From the NCBI RefSeq assembly GCF_003967015.1, contig NZ_AP017560.1, positions 3,222,048 to 3,286,047 of the forward strand: DNA of 64,000 bases, read 5' to 3'. The notes below the pieces were generated by a model. The model ran no database searches. It was not told the origin of the DNA and saw only the letters and a list, made by a program, of their open reading frames with translations. The stretch comes from Pseudanabaena sp. ABRG5-3. GTDB lineage: Bacteria; Cyanobacteriota; Cyanobacteriia; Pseudanabaenales; Pseudanabaenaceae. The translations under genes were made by a program, and so were the position numbers. Positions 13,696-22,059 of this stretch are shown here, one piece after another; the first letter of the stretch is position 1; the number at the start of each line of letters is the position of its first letter.

Positions 13696-14901
13696 GTGAA
13701 TCTTCTTACCGACTTTACCAAAGCAAATCTTACCAAATCTAGCCTAGAAGGAATCAACCTCAAGGGGGCAGATCTTAAGCGCGTGAATCTCAGTAACGCC
13801 AAACTTGCAGACTCAATGCTTGCGAAAGCAAATCTGGCAGGGGCCTTTCTGCATGAAACCGATCTCAGTCGCGCCAATCTAGTCGAAGCTAATCTCACAG
13901 AAGCCAATCTCACTTCTGCGCTTTTAATCAGTGCAGACCTCCAACGAGCTTGCCTAAATGATGCTTATTTAGTGGCAGCAAATCTCAATAGCGCCAATCT
14001 GACGAGCGCTTCTTTAATCAATGCTGACCTCAGTCTTGCCTCTTTAACTGGAGCCTGTCTCAATGGCGCAAATCTAAGTCAGGCTAAGCTCAATGGCACA
14101 TTTTTTATCGAGTCGAATTTGCTAGGAGCTGATCTCAGTAGCTCTGACTTTACGGGCGCACTAATGATTAAGGCAAATCTCAGTGGCGCAAATCTGAGTC
14201 AAGCCAGCTTGATGAATGTTGATTTGACAGAAGCGAATCTTACGGGAGCTGAACTCCATGGAGTCGATCTTAGTGGTGCGATTCTCAATGAAGCGAATCT
14301 CAATGCTGTCGATCTAGTTCATGCGAATTTGAGTGGCGGCTCCTTGAGTCGAGCGAATTTAGGCTGGGCAAATTTGCAGGGTACAAACTTAGAAAAAGCC
14401 AATCTCATTGGTTCCGACCTGAGCTGGGCAAATTTAAACGAAACCAATCTCATCGAAGCCGATTTGAGCTGGACAAATCTCACGGGTGCATTTTTGATGA
14501 AGGCAAACCTCAGTGGTGCAAATCTGAATGGGGTAAATCTTTCTAATGCCAATCTCAGTGGTGCAAATCTCAGTGGTGCAAATTTGATGGGCGCAAATTT
14601 AAGTGGAGCAGATCTCAGTAATGTCGATCTGCGCGGTGCGTATTTAATTCGCACCAATTTGCATAATGCAATTTTGAATGAAGCTAATTTGACGGGCGCA
14701 AATCTTGATGAAGCAGTATTAAACGGAGCCAGTTTAAACCGAGCGAATCTCAATCGAGCCAATCTCACCAGAGCCAGCTTGACAGGTGCAAATCTTAAGG
14801 GAGCTTTTATGCTGTGGACAAATTTAAAAGGGGCTTTCATGTTATGGACAAATTTAGATGGCGCAAACATGACAGGCGCAATTTTGCCAACAGATAAATA
14901 A
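13696..14901 (+). CDS. Pentapeptide repeat protein 1
   Basis: About 401 residues, made almost entirely of A(N/D)LXX pentapeptides that form a right-handed quadrilateral beta-helix. No other domain or signal peptide is visible. The start is uncertain: GTG at 13696 is the only usual start in the open stretch after a stop at 13657, and GAGG lies very close upstream. The DNA shows a 15-bp periodicity (AATCTCAGTGGTGCA type). Function is unknown for most cyanobacterial members. It is directly followed by a paralogue. Confidence 0.85.
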   Translation: MNLLTDFTKANLTKSSLEGINLKGADLKRVNLSNAKLADSMLAKANLAGAFLHETDLSRANLVEANLTEANLTSALLISADLQRACLNDAYLVAANLNSANLTSASLINADLSLASLTGACLNGANLSQAKLNGTFFIESNLLGADLSSSDFTGALMIKANLSGANLSQASLMNVDLTEANLTGAELHGVDLSGAILNEANLNAVDLVHANLSGGSLSRANLGWANLQGTNLEKANLIGSDLSWANLNETNLIEADLSWTNLTGAFLMKANLSGANLNGVNLSNANLSGANLSGANLMGANLSGADLSNVDLRGAYLIRTNLHNAILNEANLTGANLDEAVLNGASLNRANLNRANLTRASLTGANLKGAFMLWTNLKGAFMLWTNLDGANMTGAILPTDK

Positions 14902-14947
14902 ATCCTTGCGAGAAGCTGAATCAACAAAAACATGGTGTGAAAGAGTA

Positions 14948-15844
14948 ATGAAAGCTAGAGAACTTGTCGATCGCTATAACAAGGGCTTTCGAGATTTTAG
15001 TGAAATCAATCTCAGTGGTGAAAATCTCAGTGGTGCAGGATTAACAGCGATCGCCCTCAATAACGCCGATCTCAGTGAAACGAACCTATCGGCAACCACT
15101 TTAAATGAAGCAAATTTATATGGCGCAAAGCTAAATGCGGCAGTTCTATATCGAGCAAGTCTAAGTGATGCAAATCTCTGTGAGGCAGATCTAAATGGTG
15201 CTAGTCTGATTAAGGCTGATTTGCATGGTGCTAGGTTAGAAAGGACTAATCTCAAAGATGCTGACCTCACTGGCGCTAATCTAAATGCTGTGAGTCTTGT
15301 AAATTCGGACTTAACAGGAGCAAATTTAAGTTGTGTATCTCTAGTCGGAGCTAACCTAGAAGGCGCAAATCTCACCGAAGCATTTTTGAAAGGAGCAAAT
15401 CTAGATGGGGCAAAACTAAACGGTGCAAATCTTCAAGGCGCTAATTTGAGTGGGGCAAGCTTTAGTGAAGCTAATCTTAGTCAGGCAAATCTTTCCGCAT
15501 CTGATCTTTCCCATGCGAATTTGTATGCTGCCAATCTCAGTGATGCTTTATTGTCCAAAACTGATCTCAGTGGGGCAAATCTAAGTAGTGCCAATCTTAA
15601 TGAGGCAAATCTACAGGAAGCCGACCTCAATGGGGCTTTTTTGATTGATGCTCAGTTAGGTAGAGCGCGTCTAGATGGCGCAAATCTTAGTAAATCCAAT
15701 TGCTATAAAGCCGATTTTAAAGGTGCATCTTTACTAAGAACTAACCTCAATGGCACAAATTTAAATTGCACAGATTTTTCTAATGCTTCTCTGCAAGGCA
15801 TTGATGGTGAAAACAATCACCGTCCAGAGTATGCAAAGGACTAA
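14948..15844 (+). CDS. Pentapeptide repeat protein 2
   Basis: 298 residues if started at ATG 14948, preceded by GAAAGAG; an upstream TTG at 14906 is possible but less likely. The N-terminal cap MKARELVDRYNKGFRDF is typical of cyanobacterial pentapeptide proteins and precedes the first repeat. The rest is A(D/N)LXX repeats, ending in a short polar tail. It lies 46 bp after the first pentapeptide gene and is probably in the same transcript as the result of a duplication. Confidence 0.85.
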   Translation: MKARELVDRYNKGFRDFSEINLSGENLSGAGLTAIALNNADLSETNLSATTLNEANLYGAKLNAAVLYRASLSDANLCEADLNGASLIKADLHGARLERTNLKDADLTGANLNAVSLVNSDLTGANLSCVSLVGANLEGANLTEAFLKGANLDGAKLNGANLQGANLSGASFSEANLSQANLSASDLSHANLYAANLSDALLSKTDLSGANLSSANLNEANLQEADLNGAFLIDAQLGRARLDGANLSKSNCYKADFKGASLLRTNLNGTNLNCTDFSNASLQGIDGENNHRPEYAKD

Positions 15845-16037: not shown

Positions 16038-16796
16038 ATGAACGCAGTCATTACAAATCAAGAACTCCCAAAATATAAACGCATTTTATTAAAACTCAGT
16101 GGCGAGGCGCTCATGGGCGATCGCAGTTTTGGTATTGATCCTGAAGTTGTCCAAAATATTGCTTTACAGGTTGCCGAAATTGTTCGTGATGGCATTGAGG
16201 TAGCAATCGTTGTTGGCGGCGGTAATATCTTTCGGGGTATTAATGGTGCAGATAAGGGTATGGATCGCGCTACGGCTGATTACATTGGCATGATTGCCAC
16301 CGTGATGAATGCCCTAACTTTACAAGATGCCTTTGAGCATTTGGATGATCCGATTCCCACCAGAGTAATGTCAGCGATCGCCATGCAGGAAATCGCTGAG
16401 CCATATATCCGCCGCCGTGCTATTCGCCACCTTGAAAACAATCGGGTGGTTATTTTTGGCGCAGGCTCAGGTAATCCCTATTTCACCACTGACACAACCG
16501 CCGCTTTACGGGGAGCTGAAATTAATGCCGATGTCATCCTGAAGGCAACCAAGGTCGATGGTATTTATGACAGCGACCCCAAGAAAAATCCTAATGCAAA
16601 ACGCTTTCAATCCGTCAGTTTTGACCATGCTCTGATCAATGATCTGCGCGTTATGGATGCCACAGCTTTCGCACTTTGCAAAGAAAATGGCATCCCAATT
16701 ATTGTGTTTGATCTCGGTGTAACAGGTAACATTCGTCGCGTCGTCATGGGAGAATCGATTGGTACTTATGTTGGAGGTTCCTGTGAAGTTAACTGA
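16038..16796 (+). CDS. pyrH: UMP kinase
   Basis: 252 residues. Hexameric enzyme that phosphorylates UMP to UDP in pyrimidine synthesis. Motifs of the amino acid kinase fold: [22 protein letters not shown], the [18 protein letters not shown] segment, TRVMSA and [14 protein letters not shown]. Its last 14 bases overlap the start of frr, which is the usual bacterial neighbour. Confidence 0.97.
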
Positions 16797-17331
16797 TGTT
16801 GAGGCGCGAATGCAGAAAGCTGTAGAAGCGACCCAGCACAATTTTAATAGTGTGCGAACGGGGCGTGCTAATGCTTCGCTGTTAGATCGGATTACGGTGG
16901 AATATTATGGTGCAGAAACGCATCTCAAGGCTTTGGCAAATATTTCTTCGCCTGATGCAACCACCTTGCAAATTCAACCCTTTGATCGTTCAACCATGCG
17001 GGCGATTGAAAAAGCCATTTCTGAGTCTGATATTGGGCTTACCCCTAATAATGACGGCACAAGCATTCGCTTAAATATTCCACCTTTAACTACTGAGCGT
17101 CGTAAAGAGTTGGTGAAGATGGTGGCTAAGCTTGCCGAAGAAGGCAAAGTTGCAATTCGGAATGTACGTCGGGATGCGATCGATTCAATTCGCAAGCTAG
17201 AAAAGGCAAAAGAAATTTCTGAGGATGATTCTAAAAGTCAACAAGAGCAAGTAGATAAGTTAACGGAAAAATTCGTTAAAACTATCGATAAGGTAACTGT
17301 CGAAAAAGAAAAAGAAATTTCCACAATCTAA
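16783..17331 (+). CDS. frr: Ribosome recycling factor
   Basis: 182 residues from GTG 16783, the usual family length; GGAGG at 16773-16777 is well spaced for this start, so the longer in-frame ATG at 16759 is rejected. It splits post-termination ribosomes together with EF-G. Hallmarks: [41 protein letters not shown] and the C-terminal [13 protein letters not shown]. It overlaps pyrH by 14 bp, pointing to coupled translation. Confidence 0.96.
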
Positions 17332-17334
17332 AAC

Positions 17335-17361
17335 AAAAAGCGGCGCAATGTGCCGCTTTTT
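17335..17361 (+). terminator. Rho-independent terminator after frr
   Basis: AAAAAGCGGC and GCCGCTTTTT pair around a seven-base loop, followed by more T. It starts four bases after the stop codon. Confidence 0.88.
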
Positions 17362-17480
17362 GTTTTTTATAAAACTTTAGACTGAATATTCTTGATGTGA
17401 CAGCGATCGCATATTTTTGCGCTTAAGATCACATCAGTATAGATTAGCGATCGCTTTCTAAAAGTTGGTAGCAATAGATA

Positions 17481-17762
17481 ATGAAAGCTGTAGAGTTTCA
17501 AAGGGTAAAGTCAATGCTCCTCGACTCACTAGACCAAGCTAGCTCAATTATCATTAACACCATTTTTGGGAAAGAAAAGGCAATTGTCTTTCTAGGTAAA
17601 ACCTTTGTCGATCACCAAGTTTATGACAATCTCAATGAAGCGATCGCAGAGTGTAAAGCAGATTTAGCCTTAGGCGTAGAAGTATTAATCGCCCCTGACG
17701 ATACAAATCATTTTCGCGTTTGGATATCAATTCCTGAAGAGATGATTTTGCAATCCGCCTAA
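17481..17762 (+). CDS. Hypothetical small protein
   Basis: 93 residues, not recognised. The sequence has no signal peptide or membrane segment; it is a mixed alpha/beta protein with a regular pattern (IVFLGKTFVDHQVYDNL and EVLIAPDDTNHFRVWISIP). It is preceded by a HIP1-containing gap of 150 bp and has no clear operon partner. The 198-bp gap after it holds only a short GC-rich hairpin (about 17811-17831). Confidence 0.6.
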   Translation: MKAVEFQRVKSMLLDSLDQASSIIINTIFGKEKAIVFLGKTFVDHQVYDNLNEAIAECKADLALGVEVLIAPDDTNHFRVWISIPEEMILQSA

Positions 17763-17960
17763 ACCTTATTTACAAGACAAAATAGATAAAAAGCAATCTT
17801 AAATTAACTACCCCGCCGCAAGCGGACGGGGTATAGAAAATGTTTTGCTTGCACACATTGTTTAGCATTGCAATTTCTATCTTTCGCCGCAGAGCGTCGG
17901 GGAATTTACCCTAAGAGATTAAATAAATAAATGATCGCTTTTTTATAACAATTAATTCAC

Positions 17961-18989
17961 CTATCTATTTTGTTGTTCACACTCCCAAAGTGCATAAATC
18001 CAATGAGGAATATGATATAAGATATTTGAATTTTCAGATTCAGATGGGTATGGAGTGCGATCGCCATAAAACTTGCCAATTTCTAAAATCAGACTATCTC
18101 GCAAAGCTTGTTCACTTGATACTTGATATTGGTGGGTAATAGTAATTTTTTTGTCCATCTTATTTTCCCAATAAGGTTTAGCTTTACCAATAGTCAGCAA
18201 ACAGTCAATAAGCTTTCTTTTTGCTGCCGAATCACTTGTAGATATATATTGATTGAAAGATTCAAGCCACATTTCAGATAATTCTTCTGGATTATTTGCA
18301 GGATTTTCAAAACAAGACGAGATCCGTTTAAATGCGCGATGGAAATATATTTTTAGATCTCCATTTTTTAAATACTCGTGCTCTATTGGTAAATCCTTGG
18401 CTATTTGTTGATATATATCATCAGCAATCAAAGTATCTTGATCCCAATACAATGTATATTCACTCTCTGCTTGTAGATGGGATATTAAATCTGGCTCTAA
18501 AAAATAAGATTCTTTGTGACTCCAGCCAGTAACTAAGATATGTGAGTCCCAAATAGCTTCTTTACACACTTGATAGTTTTTATAAGTTGCATAGTATAAA
18601 TCCTCAATATCTGAATATTGATCGCAAAAATCTAATAATGGACATGGTTGTAAATCTAAATCAACCAGTGCAAAAAGCTTTTCTGGATTGAGATAAGAAT
18701 TTTCTGGATCACTGTTGTGAATTTCCCTTAACTGGGCATAGACTGATAAAACTGAGCTTCGCCCCCCGCAAGGTATAAACTTAGGCTGCTTTCGACTCCA
18801 CCACTTTGGAATAGTTGATTTCCAAAAGTTCGCATCGGGAATACGTTCAAGTTTACTAATTTGTTGTGGATTATATAAGTTTTCAAAAGTTGGATTGCCT
18901 TCACACAAAACAACAACATAGTTAAGAATATCGCGCCTTTTGATGATTTTAGAGCAAAATTTTTCTTGCTCTTGTTCAGTAAAAGTCAT
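17961..18989 (-). CDS. TOPRIM-like (DUF4435-like) protein, partner of an ATPase
   Basis: 342 residues. The sequence shows a TOPRIM-like set: Glu30 in VVVLCEG, a Gly-rich turn FIPCGGRSSVLSVYAQL, the acidic pair Asp110 and Asp112 in LFALVDLDLQ, and ILVTGWSHKESYFLE with Glu160, which resembles the 'ysiEnyl' region of DUF4435. It starts four bases after the stop codon of the ATPase gene, so the two are surely co-expressed. In PARIS (AriA ATPase plus AriB DUF4435/TOPRIM nuclease) and in OLD-type systems this order and pairing serve antiphage defence. Assignment to a particular system is inference; I cannot run a profile search. Confidence 0.65.
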   Translation of the reverse strand: MTFTEQEQEKFCSKIIKRRDILNYVVVLCEGNPTFENLYNPQQISKLERIPDANFWKSTIPKWWSRKQPKFIPCGGRSSVLSVYAQLREIHNSDPENSYLNPEKLFALVDLDLQPCPLLDFCDQYSDIEDLYYATYKNYQVCKEAIWDSHILVTGWSHKESYFLEPDLISHLQAESEYTLYWDQDTLIADDIYQQIAKDLPIEHEYLKNGDLKIYFHRAFKRISSCFENPANNPEELSEMWLESFNQYISTSDSAAKRKLIDCLLTIGKAKPYWENKMDKKITITHQYQVSSEQALRDSLILEIGKFYGDRTPYPSESENSNILYHIPHWIYALWECEQQNR

Positions 18990-18993
18990 AAAT

Positions 18994-20379
18994 TTACTTG
19001 TTCAAAATCGGTTGACTCATTTTTGGTGCTAACTCTTTTACATGTCGTGGCGTTAGAGCTTCACATAAATAAAATGAATGAGTCGCAAGAATATATTGAT
19101 TATCACCCCATTCTTGTAAATCTTTGACGATTTGATATTGCCAATCTGGATGTAATCCGTTTTCAATTTCATCAATTAAAACAATAGAATTCGTTGCTTT
19201 ATTATGTCGAATCCACGAATATAAGCAGACCCTCTTAAGTTCACCATGACTTAACTCACCTAAACTTAGTTCTTTATAGTTTTTATCGTCAATATAGTAT
19301 CGAATTGTTAATCCGTCACATTCAGAAGTAGGCAAGATTTCTTTATTACCTCCAAGGATAAATTTCAACTCTTTTGTTAAATCAGAAAAGCTATTACCAT
19401 AATAACCATACTGAATCATAGATTTAGCATCTTCTTCAAGTGCGGTTTTAAAAGCAGCTATTATTTCATTAACAGCAAAAGCATTGAAATTATACAAGTT
19501 TCCAATTTCCAACCTAGCTTTTTCTAAAGTTATTTCATAGCTTTTGTCACTATTGAACATATCTCCAATATTTGCATTACTTAGAAAAATATATGGCTGT
19601 GTAGTTTGACCTGCTAAAAAAATTTGCTTAGATAGGTTAACTAGAAGATTATGTGATTCTATAAAAGAATGATGATTAATTGTGCAACAAAGACTAAAGC
19701 GACGTGACTCACTATTACCTGAATTAATATCCATAGAACATATAAATTCTAGATTTGCTTCTCTTAATGCTTGGTAGCAAACTTCTTCTGATATATTTTC
19801 TAACTGTTCTTCAGCCACTCTAATTTGCTTGTCGATACTTTCCAAGATTGGTCTAATTTTCTTTTGCCTCTCTATTCGCTCATTTGCTGGAGGAATACTA
19901 CGGTAAGAGTTGTCTACAACAAAGTTTGCCTCTAAAAGCTGTAAGTGTTTTTCTTTGTCTAAATTTAAAGAATTTATCTTGGCTTTTAATGATTTTGCTA
20001 AAGAAATCAAATCAATTACAGTACCAATAGAAATATTTTCTATGTTCTCTTGATCTTGCAACCCTGCTGGATAAAGTAGATAAGAGATTGAAATAATTTT
20101 ATTCTTATCCATCAATTCAATATCAATGATTTGATGAATTTTTTCTTCTAAGTTCTCTAGGGAACTTTTCATATGCTGAATAGCATTGGTTATAAATTTA
20201 TGTAAGTTAGGATGTGGCGCACAATGTAAAAGCGTAAAAACAAGTTGTAATAATGTACTTTTCCCACCACCATTCTCACTACCGATCGCAAAAACTTGTG
20301 GATATAAATCTGGTTCAAAAGTTAGTGAAACATCTTTCAAATGACGATAGTTATGGACGTGAACCTTGAGTAATTTCAT
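18994..20379 (-). CDS. ABC/RecF-type AAA ATPase of a two-gene defence-like unit
   Basis: 461 residues. The N-terminus (KLLKVHVHNYRHLKDVSLTF) and Walker A GSENGGGKST (33-42) are RecF/OLD-like. The centre (about 65-200) is Lys/Glu-rich and probably coiled-coil. A signature-like motif LSLGELSHGELKR, Walker B with D-loop VLIDEIENGLHPDW and the H-loop ATHSFY follow. The protein thus has a complete ABC-type ATPase head. It is AT-richer than its neighbours and almost free of HIP1 sites, a hint of transfer. It has its own promoter space after the petA terminator and leads into the TOPRIM-like gene. Confidence 0.8.
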   Translation of the reverse strand: MKLLKVHVHNYRHLKDVSLTFEPDLYPQVFAIGSENGGGKSTLLQLVFTLLHCAPHPNLHKFITNAIQHMKSSLENLEEKIHQIIDIELMDKNKIISISYLLYPAGLQDQENIENISIGTVIDLISLAKSLKAKINSLNLDKEKHLQLLEANFVVDNSYRSIPPANERIERQKKIRPILESIDKQIRVAEEQLENISEEVCYQALREANLEFICSMDINSGNSESRRFSLCCTINHHSFIESHNLLVNLSKQIFLAGQTTQPYIFLSNANIGDMFNSDKSYEITLEKARLEIGNLYNFNAFAVNEIIAAFKTALEEDAKSMIQYGYYGNSFSDLTKELKFILGGNKEILPTSECDGLTIRYYIDDKNYKELSLGELSHGELKRVCLYSWIRHNKATNSIVLIDEIENGLHPDWQYQIVKDLQEWGDNQYILATHSFYLCEALTPRHVKELAPKMSQPILNK

Positions 20380-20437
20380 TGCAAAACCTAAATACTAAAG
20401 TTGTCAACATTCTAACTAAAATATAGACAAACAAAAT

Positions 20438-20464
20438 AAAAAAGCACCCAATGGGTGCTTTTTT
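20438..20464. terminator. Terminator of petC-petA
   Basis: Perfect 12-base arms (AAAAAAGCACCC / GGGTGCTTTTTT) with loop AAT, 19 bp after the petA stop codon on the minus strand. It separates petA from the downstream ATPase gene. Confidence 0.88.
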
Positions 20465-20482
20465 GTTGAAATGTAATGTAAT

Positions 20483-21466
20483 TTAGAAGTTCATTTCTAC
20501 AGCTTGAACTTTTTCGACCTGCTTCTTCTTCAATACCAACAGAATTTGAGTAACGATTACTGCGGCGAAGAATGCTAGTAAACCTTGAATGCGGCGAGGG
20601 TCTTGAAGCACGATTTCACCATCATGCTGACCAAAACCACCAACGTTAGGATTAGTAGTTAGAGGTGCACCCACCTTAACTTCACTACCAGGCTCAACAA
20701 CTAGCTCAGCACCAGCAGGAACCTTCTCAACAGCGATGCTGCCATCGGTAGTTTGGATGGAAATTTCATAACCACCATAGATACCTTCATCTTCATTAGG
20801 AGCGATCGGGCTAATTTGAGTAACTAGACCAGAAACAGAAGAAGTATATTCGTTGTTATTGCTCTTTTCACCAGTGGGGTAAACTTGACCGCGACCACGG
20901 TTACCACCAGCGTATACAGAATACTTCAAGAAGTGGATATTCTTGTCTGTTGCAGGGTCAGGAGAGAGGACAGGGAAAACAATTTCGGAATACTCATCAC
21001 CAGAGATAGGACCGACAAGAACGATATTTTCTTGGTCATCGCTATAGGGTTGGTAATAGATATCTTTAGTCTTTTCCTTTAGTTCTTCAGATAAGCGCTC
21101 TTCAGGAGCAATCTTGAAACCTTCAGGCAATACTAAAACTGCACCAATATTCAAACCTGTTTTGCTACCATCAGCAGCTACTTGCTGTTTGGAGTGGTCA
21201 TAGGGAACTTTGACTACTGCTTCAAATACGGAATCGGGCTTAACAGATTGAGGTAACTCTAACTCAATTCCTTTTTTCGCTAAGTGACAGTTAGCACAGA
21301 CAATTTTGCCAGTTGCTTCACGAGGAGTTTTGTAAGCTTCTTGGGCAAAGTAGGGATAGGCAAAAGCAGACTGGTTATTCAGTCCAAATAACAAAGTCAA
21401 GCTGGTGAGGACGCATAGGCTAACTCCGACAAGCAGACGTTTAGCACGGGATAAAGCTTTTTTCAT
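20483..21466 (-). CDS. petA: Cytochrome f
   Basis: 327 residues from the ATG at 21466 ([11 protein letters not shown]); the longer open frame upstream overlaps petC and lacks a signal. A Sec signal ends at about Ala36, giving a mature start YPYFAQEAY, where the N-terminal Tyr is the axial haem ligand. The covalent haem motif CANCH is at 57-61. A C-terminal membrane anchor ([21 protein letters not shown]) holds it in the thylakoid membrane. It is the c-type cytochrome of the b6f complex, passing electrons from the Rieske protein to plastocyanin or cytochrome c6. It lies 53 bp after petC. Confidence 0.98.
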
Positions 21467-21519
21467 GTATGAGTTCAAATGTGATTTAAATACCGATTGC
21501 AAAGAGTTCTGGCAAACTA

Positions 21520-22059
21520 CTAAGACCACCAAGGAGCTTCATTGGTGCGGAAGTCAGTTTCCGTCCAAGTGCTAAATTGTACAACGTCATCCTCAACTGT
21601 GGCATGGGCAAGGGCAAGGGACAGAGGCGCAGGACCACGGACAACTTTGCCTTCGTTGTTGTACTGAGAGCCATGACAAGGACAAATAAACTTGTTCTCG
21701 GCAGCATTCCAAGGTACAACGCAACCAAGGTGAGTACAGACTGCATTTAATCCGTAGGAAGCAATTTCTCTATTTTCAGTAACAACAATGTAGGTGGGGT
21801 CGCCCTTAAGTCCTTGAGCAAGCTCACGTTCACCAGGTTGATGACTTGCCAAGAAAGCCGAAGCAATAATATCTTTGCCCAAGGCATCTTTAGCAGATAC
21901 ACCACCGCCAGCGCCACCACGAGATGGAGGTACAAAATATGCCAAGAATGGGTAGGCAGCACCAAGGGTGGTTACGGCAGCAGACCCCCCTAAAACTAGG
22001 TTTAGAAATCGACGACGACCAATGCTAGGAACATCGGCGGATGCAGAAGCTTGACTCAT
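21520..22059 (-). CDS. petC: Cytochrome b6f Rieske iron-sulfur protein
   Basis: 179 residues. An N-terminal twin-Arg-like GRRRFLN plus one membrane helix (residues 20-45) are followed by a Gly-rich hinge (GGAGGG). The 2Fe-2S ligands are in CTHLGC (Cys108, His110) and CPCHGSQ (Cys126, His129), with Cys113 and Cys128 forming the disulfide. It oxidises plastoquinol in the b6f complex and delivers electrons to cytochrome f. It is first in the petC-petA operon. Confidence 0.98.

Follow-up and report, generated by a model that had tools for sequence, protein, structure and literature searches.

A candidate PARIS-like defence pair with an AriB-like effector and a hypervariable ATPase insert behind petA of Pseudanabaena sp. 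ABRG5-3

We analysed a stretch of 64,000 nucleotides from the cyanobacterium Pseudanabaena sp. ABRG5-3 (contig NZ_AP017560.1, positions 3,222,048 to 3,286,047; hereafter the window, from whose first letter coordinates are counted), in which two adjoining genes, A and B, encode an ABC-type ATPase and a predicted TOPRIM protein. A first-pass annotation made from the letters alone had claimed two open reading frames (ORFs) with four-base spacing at 17961-20379, placed right after petA, and had read them as a defence unit and candidate PARIS- or OLD-like antiphage system. Both ORFs are confirmed on the minus strand, with A first, B second and 4 bases between them; A starts 103 bp past the end of petA. 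With a probability of roughly three in four, we read the unit as an abortive-infection system of two genes, of the PARIS / OLD-ABC plus TOPRIM kind, that was acquired by horizontal transfer. The features of the locus are as follows.

18994-20379, minus strand: gene A, OLD/AriA-type ABC ATPase of 461 amino acids, proposed sensor and restrainer (Pfam, PADLOC and PDB profile matches, motifs)
17961-18989, minus strand: gene B, AriB-like TOPRIM protein of 342 amino acids, proposed nuclease effector (predicted structure, invariant residues)
19735-20211, minus strand: hypervariable central part of A (residues ~57-215), candidate sensor insert (pairwise identity by bins, within-pair contrasts)
20435-20467, minus strand: terminator-like inverted repeat with a T-rich tail behind petA, in the gap between petA and A (consensus scan, which is no proof of function)
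17800-17925, no strand assigned: dispersed hairpin-bearing repeat of about 125 bp, 3' of B, at the insertion border (copies elsewhere; terminator-like hairpin)
20483-21532, minus strand: petA, insertion flank (Pfam apocytochrome f)
16759-17331, plus strand: frr, opposite insertion flank (Pfam RRF)

The assignment of A to the ABC-type ATPases with a full motif set is borne out. The protein passes the Pfam cut-offs for AAA_21 (60.2 bits) and AAA_15 (52.0 bits), matches the PtuA, AriA, HEC-01A and MAD3 models among 102 PADLOC families, and finds PtuA and AriA chains in a profile search of the PDB, with PtuA giving its best ATPase profile matches. It carries what we take to be Walker A (residues 33-42), an LSHGE signature (376-380), the Walker B residues D403 and E404, and the H-loop residue H434. 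Over 73 sequences these key motif residues show little or no variation, and the A ORFs as called range from 357 to 562 amino acids.

Protein B was modelled with AlphaFold2 from a 71-sequence alignment (mean predicted local distance difference test, pLDDT, 89.7), and its fold was compared by VIA-align re-ranking of Foldseek's 1000 top PDB chains. The top rows are PARIS chains, 8ux9_A (Z 10.2 over 218 residues, root-mean-square deviation, rmsd, 5.3) and 8v46_D (Z 9.8 over 222 residues, rmsd 5.2). Judged from their lengths of 306 and 305 residues, both are presumably AriB, AriA having 464. OLD C-terminal regions (Z 7.5, 7.2 and 7.2), retron Eco8 (5.3 and 5.0) and GajA-GajB (5.1) come next, and all eight rows above the first unrelated chain (Z 3.6) are OLD/PARIS-type proteins. 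Because a Z below 8 may by itself reflect merely a shared arrangement, we rely mainly on the two PARIS rows and on the drop in Z that follows them. A first, shallow model (14 sequences, pLDDT 70), superseded by the deeper one, had a PARIS chain on top at Z 7.2 and OLD at 7.1; a Foldseek search of the second model against viral models gave no significant match. On the strength of the deeper model, we consider it very probable that B has a TOPRIM fold, nearest to that of AriB. The first-pass annotation had made its reading depend on such a fold and had proposed searches against PARIS, OLD, Gabija and retron ATPases; AriB emerged as nearest, with OLD, Eco8 and GajA-GajB next, so that the PARIS part of the proposal stood while OLD and Gabija proved less close. 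Its Glu30, Asp110-x-Asp112 and HKESYFL segment are all present in B. Invariant in the 71 sequences are L28, E30, G31, D52, D110, D112, Y136, T154, G155, K159, E160, Y162, F163, R222, K271, W274 and H326.

At the level of profiles, B falls outside the named PARIS effectors. The founding rule of PARIS, as given in the accessible part of PMC9122126, calls for AAA_15 at 32 bits or AAA_21 at 27 bits together with an adjacent DUF4435 at 27 bits. Protein A clears both ATPase thresholds with the scores given above, and B reaches 16.8 of the 27 bits (E 0.0061, residues 52-99). Among the 71 family members over which DUF4435 and PADLOC AriB matches were counted, six match DUF4435 at E ≤1, the best at E 0.0038; given that 16.8 bits corresponds to E 0.0061, no member can reach 27 bits. 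PADLOC matches nothing in the window B and finds AriB in one of the 71 (E 0.031), NCBIfam, run on the window protein, gives B no score above a cut-off, PHROGs has no match for the two members tried, and phmmer finds no match of B in the PDB. The pair is PARIS-like but is not PARIS under the founding rule, which would overlook it because B and its relatives miss the DUF4435 cut-off. The annotation's phrase 'divergent variant' is therefore apt, and its 'DUF4435-like' holds for the sub-threshold match of B and fails at the cut-off, for B as for all 71 members. The predicted AriB-like TOPRIM fold and the acidic catalytic residues expected of a PARIS effector are in place in B, the residues E30, D110, D112 and E160 being invariant.

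The order of motifs illustrates the divergence. Cyanobacterial DUF4435 proteins read EG-x-x-D...CGG...DRDF...YSIEN or EG-x-x-D...VDADF...TDTHDLE, and B reads EG, about 20 extra residues, then PDANFW...CGG...VDLD...HKE. In our reading, D52 would be the D of EGxxD and E160 the E of SIEN, with HH comparison backing the D52-CGG part alone. Two cyanobacterial DUF4435 branches match one another at 95% HH probability and B matches them at 12% and 0.5%, which marks B as an outlier. DUF4435 proteins above the cut-off occur in 33 of 292 genomes of a phylum sample, and this genome is not among them.

Beyond the window, A and B travel together. A genome-collection scan confirmed 83 stretches, the best 80 of which serve as loci (numbered L; some share contigs with a separate 194-genome search, and L107 and L108 both represent a single palindromic contig). 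In 77 of the 80, A is the gene immediately 5' of B, with the same orientation. The three exceptions are L112, at a contig start, L115, where B is frameshifted and A present, and L075, which has lost most of A and the first ~30 residues of B. In the 194-genome search A is present at 14 of 18 B loci, the other four being B fragments at a contig start. Presence is patchy: B is carried by 13 of 26 Pseudanabaena genomes and, at E 1e-10, by 19 of 386 genomes of a phylum sample, and 24 of the 80 loci carry labels other than cyanobacteria, namely Methylococcales, Thiotrichaceae/Beggiatoa, Desulfobacterales, Planctomycetota, Chloroflexaceae, Bacteroidota or, once, 'bacterium'.

The petA site itself is variable. 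We took the petA region from 11 of 25 other congeners with a petA match: the frr and petA sides both align in seven, with nothing of 17961-20379 between them, the petA side alone aligns in four, and the unit aligns in none. In one empty site (genome G002, L116), the frr side joins the petA side within ~35 bp, with flanks 96-97% identical to the window; genomes G013 and G005 keep a neighbouring 93-residue ORF and lack the pair. An insertion right after petA, as first annotated, thus agrees with relatives in which petA adjoins frr, and the empty site in seven congeners and the patchy presence speak against a conserved housekeeping operon, the outcome that the annotation had set as its refutation. 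The claimed AT-richness is likewise confirmed, with a GC content of 32.4% in the unit against 42.1% in the window; 7 of 1232 same-length segments have equally low GC, every one overlapping the unit itself. The claimed poverty in HIP1 sites did not hold up as unusual: the unit has one site, 288 of the 1232 segments are equally poor, and we dropped HIP1 scarcity as a sign of foreign origin.

In a tree of 73 B proteins, the window copy clusters with that of L019, a Desulfobacterales copy and three Crocosphaera copies (100/100), and nine other Pseudanabaena copies, including the second copy of its own genome, form a separate group (100/100). The window B is 48% identical to the Desulfobacterales copy, 37-40% to those of Crocosphaera and 31-34% to those of other congeners. 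At fourfold sites, the window and genome G019, which holds L019, differ at 15 of 97 positions in B versus 132 of 330 in petA, frr and the neighbouring amino-acid-kinase gene, which we take to be pyrH (Fisher p 5e-6). The L019 pair sits behind a proline/glutamate-semialdehyde dehydrogenase-type gene and the window pair behind petA. From the low divergence of B and the different sites, we read the pair as having probably been transferred horizontally in recent times.

The middle of A is hypervariable, and its two ends are nearly constant. Across 73 members, occupancy-weighted mean pairwise identity is 0.68-0.75 over residues 1-60, 0.08-0.13 over 101-200 and 0.61-0.76 over 381-460. We compared 45 pairs of copies whose B proteins are at least 80% identical; these share many members and are not independent. 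The first 56 residues of A are at least 85% identical in all 45, and the middle falls below 50% in 30 and lies above it in 15, the latter including three near-identical Methylococcales pairs. Between the window and L019, identity is 92% in B, 95% in A residues 1-56, 44% in the middle and 91% at the end of A, and only ~30% of the sensor region may be common to copies whose B proteins are 93-94% identical. All 36 insert pairs among nine copies compared by pairwise alignment are recognisably homologous over at least part of their length (BLASTP E 2e-11 or better), which points to swapped alleles of a single domain and not to swaps between unrelated domains.

In Pseudanabaena, typing of these nine copies uncouples sensor from effector. 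By sensor, they fall into a type made up of L021, L023 and L027 (58-73% identical) and a second made up of L022, L025, L026 and L035 (44-51%), with L024 and L028 apart from both; by effector, L021-L025 group together (89-94%), as do L026 and L027 (86%). L027 therefore combines the sensor type of L021 and L023 with the effector type of L026, which has the other sensor. The neighbour of L021-L025 and L028 is leuS (identified on L021); that of L026, L027 and L035 is ilvC (identified on L026 and L035, with L027 placed by sequence likeness). In the ten pairs of L021-L025, the fourfold sites of leuS diverge by 0.31-0.43 and those of B by 0.10-0.19, against 0.27-0.77 for the final 100 residues of A. 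The divergent B of L028 (0.49-0.56) indicates that B codons are not frozen as such, and the unlike values imply that adjacent genes have different histories.

As a control, we used 30 cyanobacterial DUF4435 loci, in 13 of which both genes were recognised, giving 25 pairs with effectors more than 50% identical. The four pairs with effectors at least 80% identical keep the ATPase middle, apart from one single 30-column dip to 0.33. More distant pairs show dips at the same place. As far as this small control indicates, ATPases of this type generally vary in the middle, and the family studied here does so more strongly. Three control loci, L131, L132 and L134, display the reverse pattern, with ATPases 96-97% and effectors 80-84% identical. 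Type I restriction offers a likeness to the swapping of A inserts, in that HsdS recognition domains are shuffled. By a small margin over even odds, we favour an exchangeable sensor insert in A on the basis of these comparisons.

In PARIS, AriA hexamers hold AriB until a trigger such as Ocr frees it to dimerise and cut tRNA-Lys, whereupon growth stops (PMC11455837; PMC12409363 in its accessible part). With pairing, predicted fold, invariant residues, mobility, hypervariability and uncoupling computed directly, the A/B pair most likely works as PARIS does in outline; beyond fold and motifs, we infer that A and B form a complex and that a trigger releases B, and likewise the target, the protection against phage and the route of recombination. 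ATPase A would keep B silent, and its variable insert, held between conserved ATPase ends, would recognise a phage-made trigger. Released B would act as a metal-dependent TOPRIM nuclease through Glu30, Asp110, Asp112 and probably Glu160, cutting nucleic acid of the host (RNA such as tRNA, as for AriB, being likeliest), so that growth arrest would precede phage production; we lean modestly towards RNA over DNA as the target. Recombination in the conserved ends of A would replace the sensor insert and retain the effector. The annotation's reading of a defence unit draws support from the AriB-like predicted fold and the non-conserved site, with the defence function itself being what we infer.

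Several observations weigh against this interpretation. The PARIS alignments of B have an rmsd of 5.2-5.3 and 11% identity and come from VIA-align, which re-examines the list that Foldseek returns; Foldseek by itself found no significant PDB match for either B model. The HH match of B to cyanobacterial DUF4435 is weak (probability 12%, E 0.0024, over the D52-CGG part), and the 71-member B profile found no AriB chain in the PDB, only three chance-like matches at E 0.16-0.23. A profile of seven cyanobacterial DUF4435 proteins likewise finds no PDB chain, which makes the failure of this route to AriB uninformative. The B tree tool flagged long branches and an unsettled bootstrap. Phage, plasmid and viral-contig collections yielded no copy, and many copies sit near housekeeping genes (the dapL family at 19 loci, the leuS family at 10), not in obvious defence islands, as seen without a systematic neighbour scan; ten neighbour proteins, chosen by eye, were scanned. 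Ordinary cyanobacterial DUF4435-linked ATPases also vary in the middle, mostly in more distant pairs.

Four other explanations deserve weighing. The pair could be an ordinary PARIS system whose AriA and AriB score low through the insertion after EG, a reading that overlaps ours in mechanism, differs in membership, and seems to us possible yet on balance unlikely. The best structural matches of B, being PARIS chains, would suit it, as would the weak DUF4435 and HH matches over the AriB-like D52 and CGG segment; the profile counts tell against it, since 0 of 71 members can reach the DUF4435 cut-off and 1 of 71 matches PADLOC AriB, and the DUF4435 branches recognise one another far better than they do B. 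We find it improbable that the pair is a two-component OLD-like nuclease degrading invading phage or plasmid DNA instead of host RNA. PARIS chains, whose effector is an RNase, match B better than OLD does, the genes are split as in PARIS, and the neighbours scanned hold no helicase or DNA-processing gene, although the structural matches that follow include OLD and GajA-GajB chains and A matches PtuA, AriA and MAD3 models alike.

Slightly less probable again is a selfish module resembling toxin-antitoxin systems, kept by addiction and devoid of an antiviral role. It would account for the several copies, L035 among them, in which B is broken and A kept, the reverse being unseen in 13 loci examined, but variability focused in the insert of A and insert exchange point to a changing partner being recognised, and plasmid collections contain no copy. 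A regulated function of the host, in stress or the processing of RNA and inherited close to dapL, leuS or petA, is highly improbable: the dapL and leuS neighbourhoods are what speaks for it, against absence from 367 of 386 phylum-sample genomes, a petA site empty in congeners and a spread over several phyla.

Damaged copies bear on how the pair decays. This genome has another, divergent pair at the ilvC site (L035:7662-11108; G000:C1, ~1502.6-1506.1 kb), whose B is interrupted by an IS630-type element, with a C-terminal piece of B left behind the element. Among 13 loci examined, mostly picked for an odd ORF scan, B is interrupted, frameshifted or internally deleted and A kept in L035, L106, L109, L115 and L086 (second copy); in L113 B is probably damaged likewise, with A visible in part. 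Both genes are damaged in L075, L107 and L110, and a damaged A with whole B occurs in none, contig ends excepted (L047, L112). Several of these loci are metagenome assemblies in which frameshifts may be errors. B-first decay fits an effector that would be harmful without A, an argument weakened by the non-toxic ariA deletion in E. coli PARIS reported in the accessible part of PMC9122126.

The genes scanned around the window pair comprise petA, petC, frr, the amino-acid-kinase gene, pentapeptide-repeat, protein-kinase and RNase E/G genes and the 93-residue ORF. Neither a reverse transcriptase (flanking ORFs, scanned with Pfam) nor a UvrD/Rep-like helicase such as GajB or another DNA-processing gene lies among them, and Rfam, consulted for a retron or other RNA part, has no family above its gathering score in 17300-20600. 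Two pentapeptide-repeat proteins are encoded consecutively at 13696-15844. The 93-residue ORF (17481-17762) has no Pfam match and has relatives in 24 of 26 genus genomes, often in several copies. Near-full copies of the repeat at 17800-17925 occur at 87-98% identity elsewhere in this and related genomes, its first hairpin alone is present at many more places, and no transposase ORF adjoins the three copies inspected by eye.

Elsewhere, the recurrent neighbour families looked up (dapL, leuS, ilvC, typA and mrdA) are all housekeeping genes, and we propose no third system component; several further recurrent families lay outside the look-up. Among filamentous cyanobacteria, a common position of the pair is a few hundred bases past dapL, which encodes LL-diaminopimelate aminotransferase (L043, L050, L062, L070 and others; named on L043). 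L073, L076 and L092, together with L021-L025, fall on separate B-tree branches (Nostocales and Pseudanabaena) and all lie behind leuS within ~2 kb, which suggests that leuS is a recurrent landing site. We dropped the idea that leuS adjacency marks tRNA-Leu as the target, dapL being the commoner neighbour. The spacer between leuS and A holds a ParE/RHH toxin-antitoxin pair (L021, L022 and L025) or a DUF29 protein (L023, L024, L028 and L030), families named on L021 and L023. At L029:5928-7719, a second ATPase pair, AAA_15 with DUF3226, lies 5' of the system copy, and we counted it towards the defence reading.

Comparison with known systems locates what is new. Like PARIS, the unit has a separate ABC-ATPase gene followed by a TOPRIM gene, AriB-sized PARIS chains as the best structural matches of B, and an ATPase above the AAA_15/AAA_21 cut-offs of the PARIS definition (PMC9122126, accessible part). 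It departs from PARIS in the sub-threshold DUF4435 score of B, the extra residues between EG and the next D, an HKEAYFL where cyanobacterial DUF4435 proteins have SIEN or TDTHDLE, and an insert in A more variable than in the small control. OLD class 1 and Gabija (class 2), following the definitions in the accessible part of PMC10568477, also join an OLD-type ABC ATPase with a TOPRIM domain, but OLD class 1 does so in a fused, single, stand-alone gene where we find two ORFs, and Gabija places the helicase GajB beside the OLD gene. Septu and retron PtuA are the best ATPase profile matches of A; Septu pairs PtuA with an HNH protein, PtuB, whereas B matches no HNH profile and is predicted to have a TOPRIM fold, and retrons carry the reverse transcriptase that the flanking genes lack. 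Pairs of AAA_15 and DUF3226 share the order of ATPase and second small protein and differ in partner family.

The architecture is already known; the effector branch and the sensor-effector uncoupling appear to be new. A literature search, mostly without subscription papers, returned no prior account of the B family or of sensor exchange in PARIS-type ATPases; an ABC-ATPase conflict-system survey cited in the accessible part of PMC12839542 may include the family. We incline, if narrowly, to the view that this is an unannotated, widespread PARIS-like branch in which the ATPase would act as an interchangeable antigen receptor, recombination at its ends swapping the insert across sites and species while the TOPRIM effector stays. 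Because the profile libraries tried leave the effector unnamed, surveys covering cyanobacteria, methanotrophs or large sulfur bacteria have probably not counted the family. Natural pairs with a near-identical effector and a different insert provide a ready-made test of whether the ATPase insert sets the phage signal, a question that bears on OLD-ABC defence systems.

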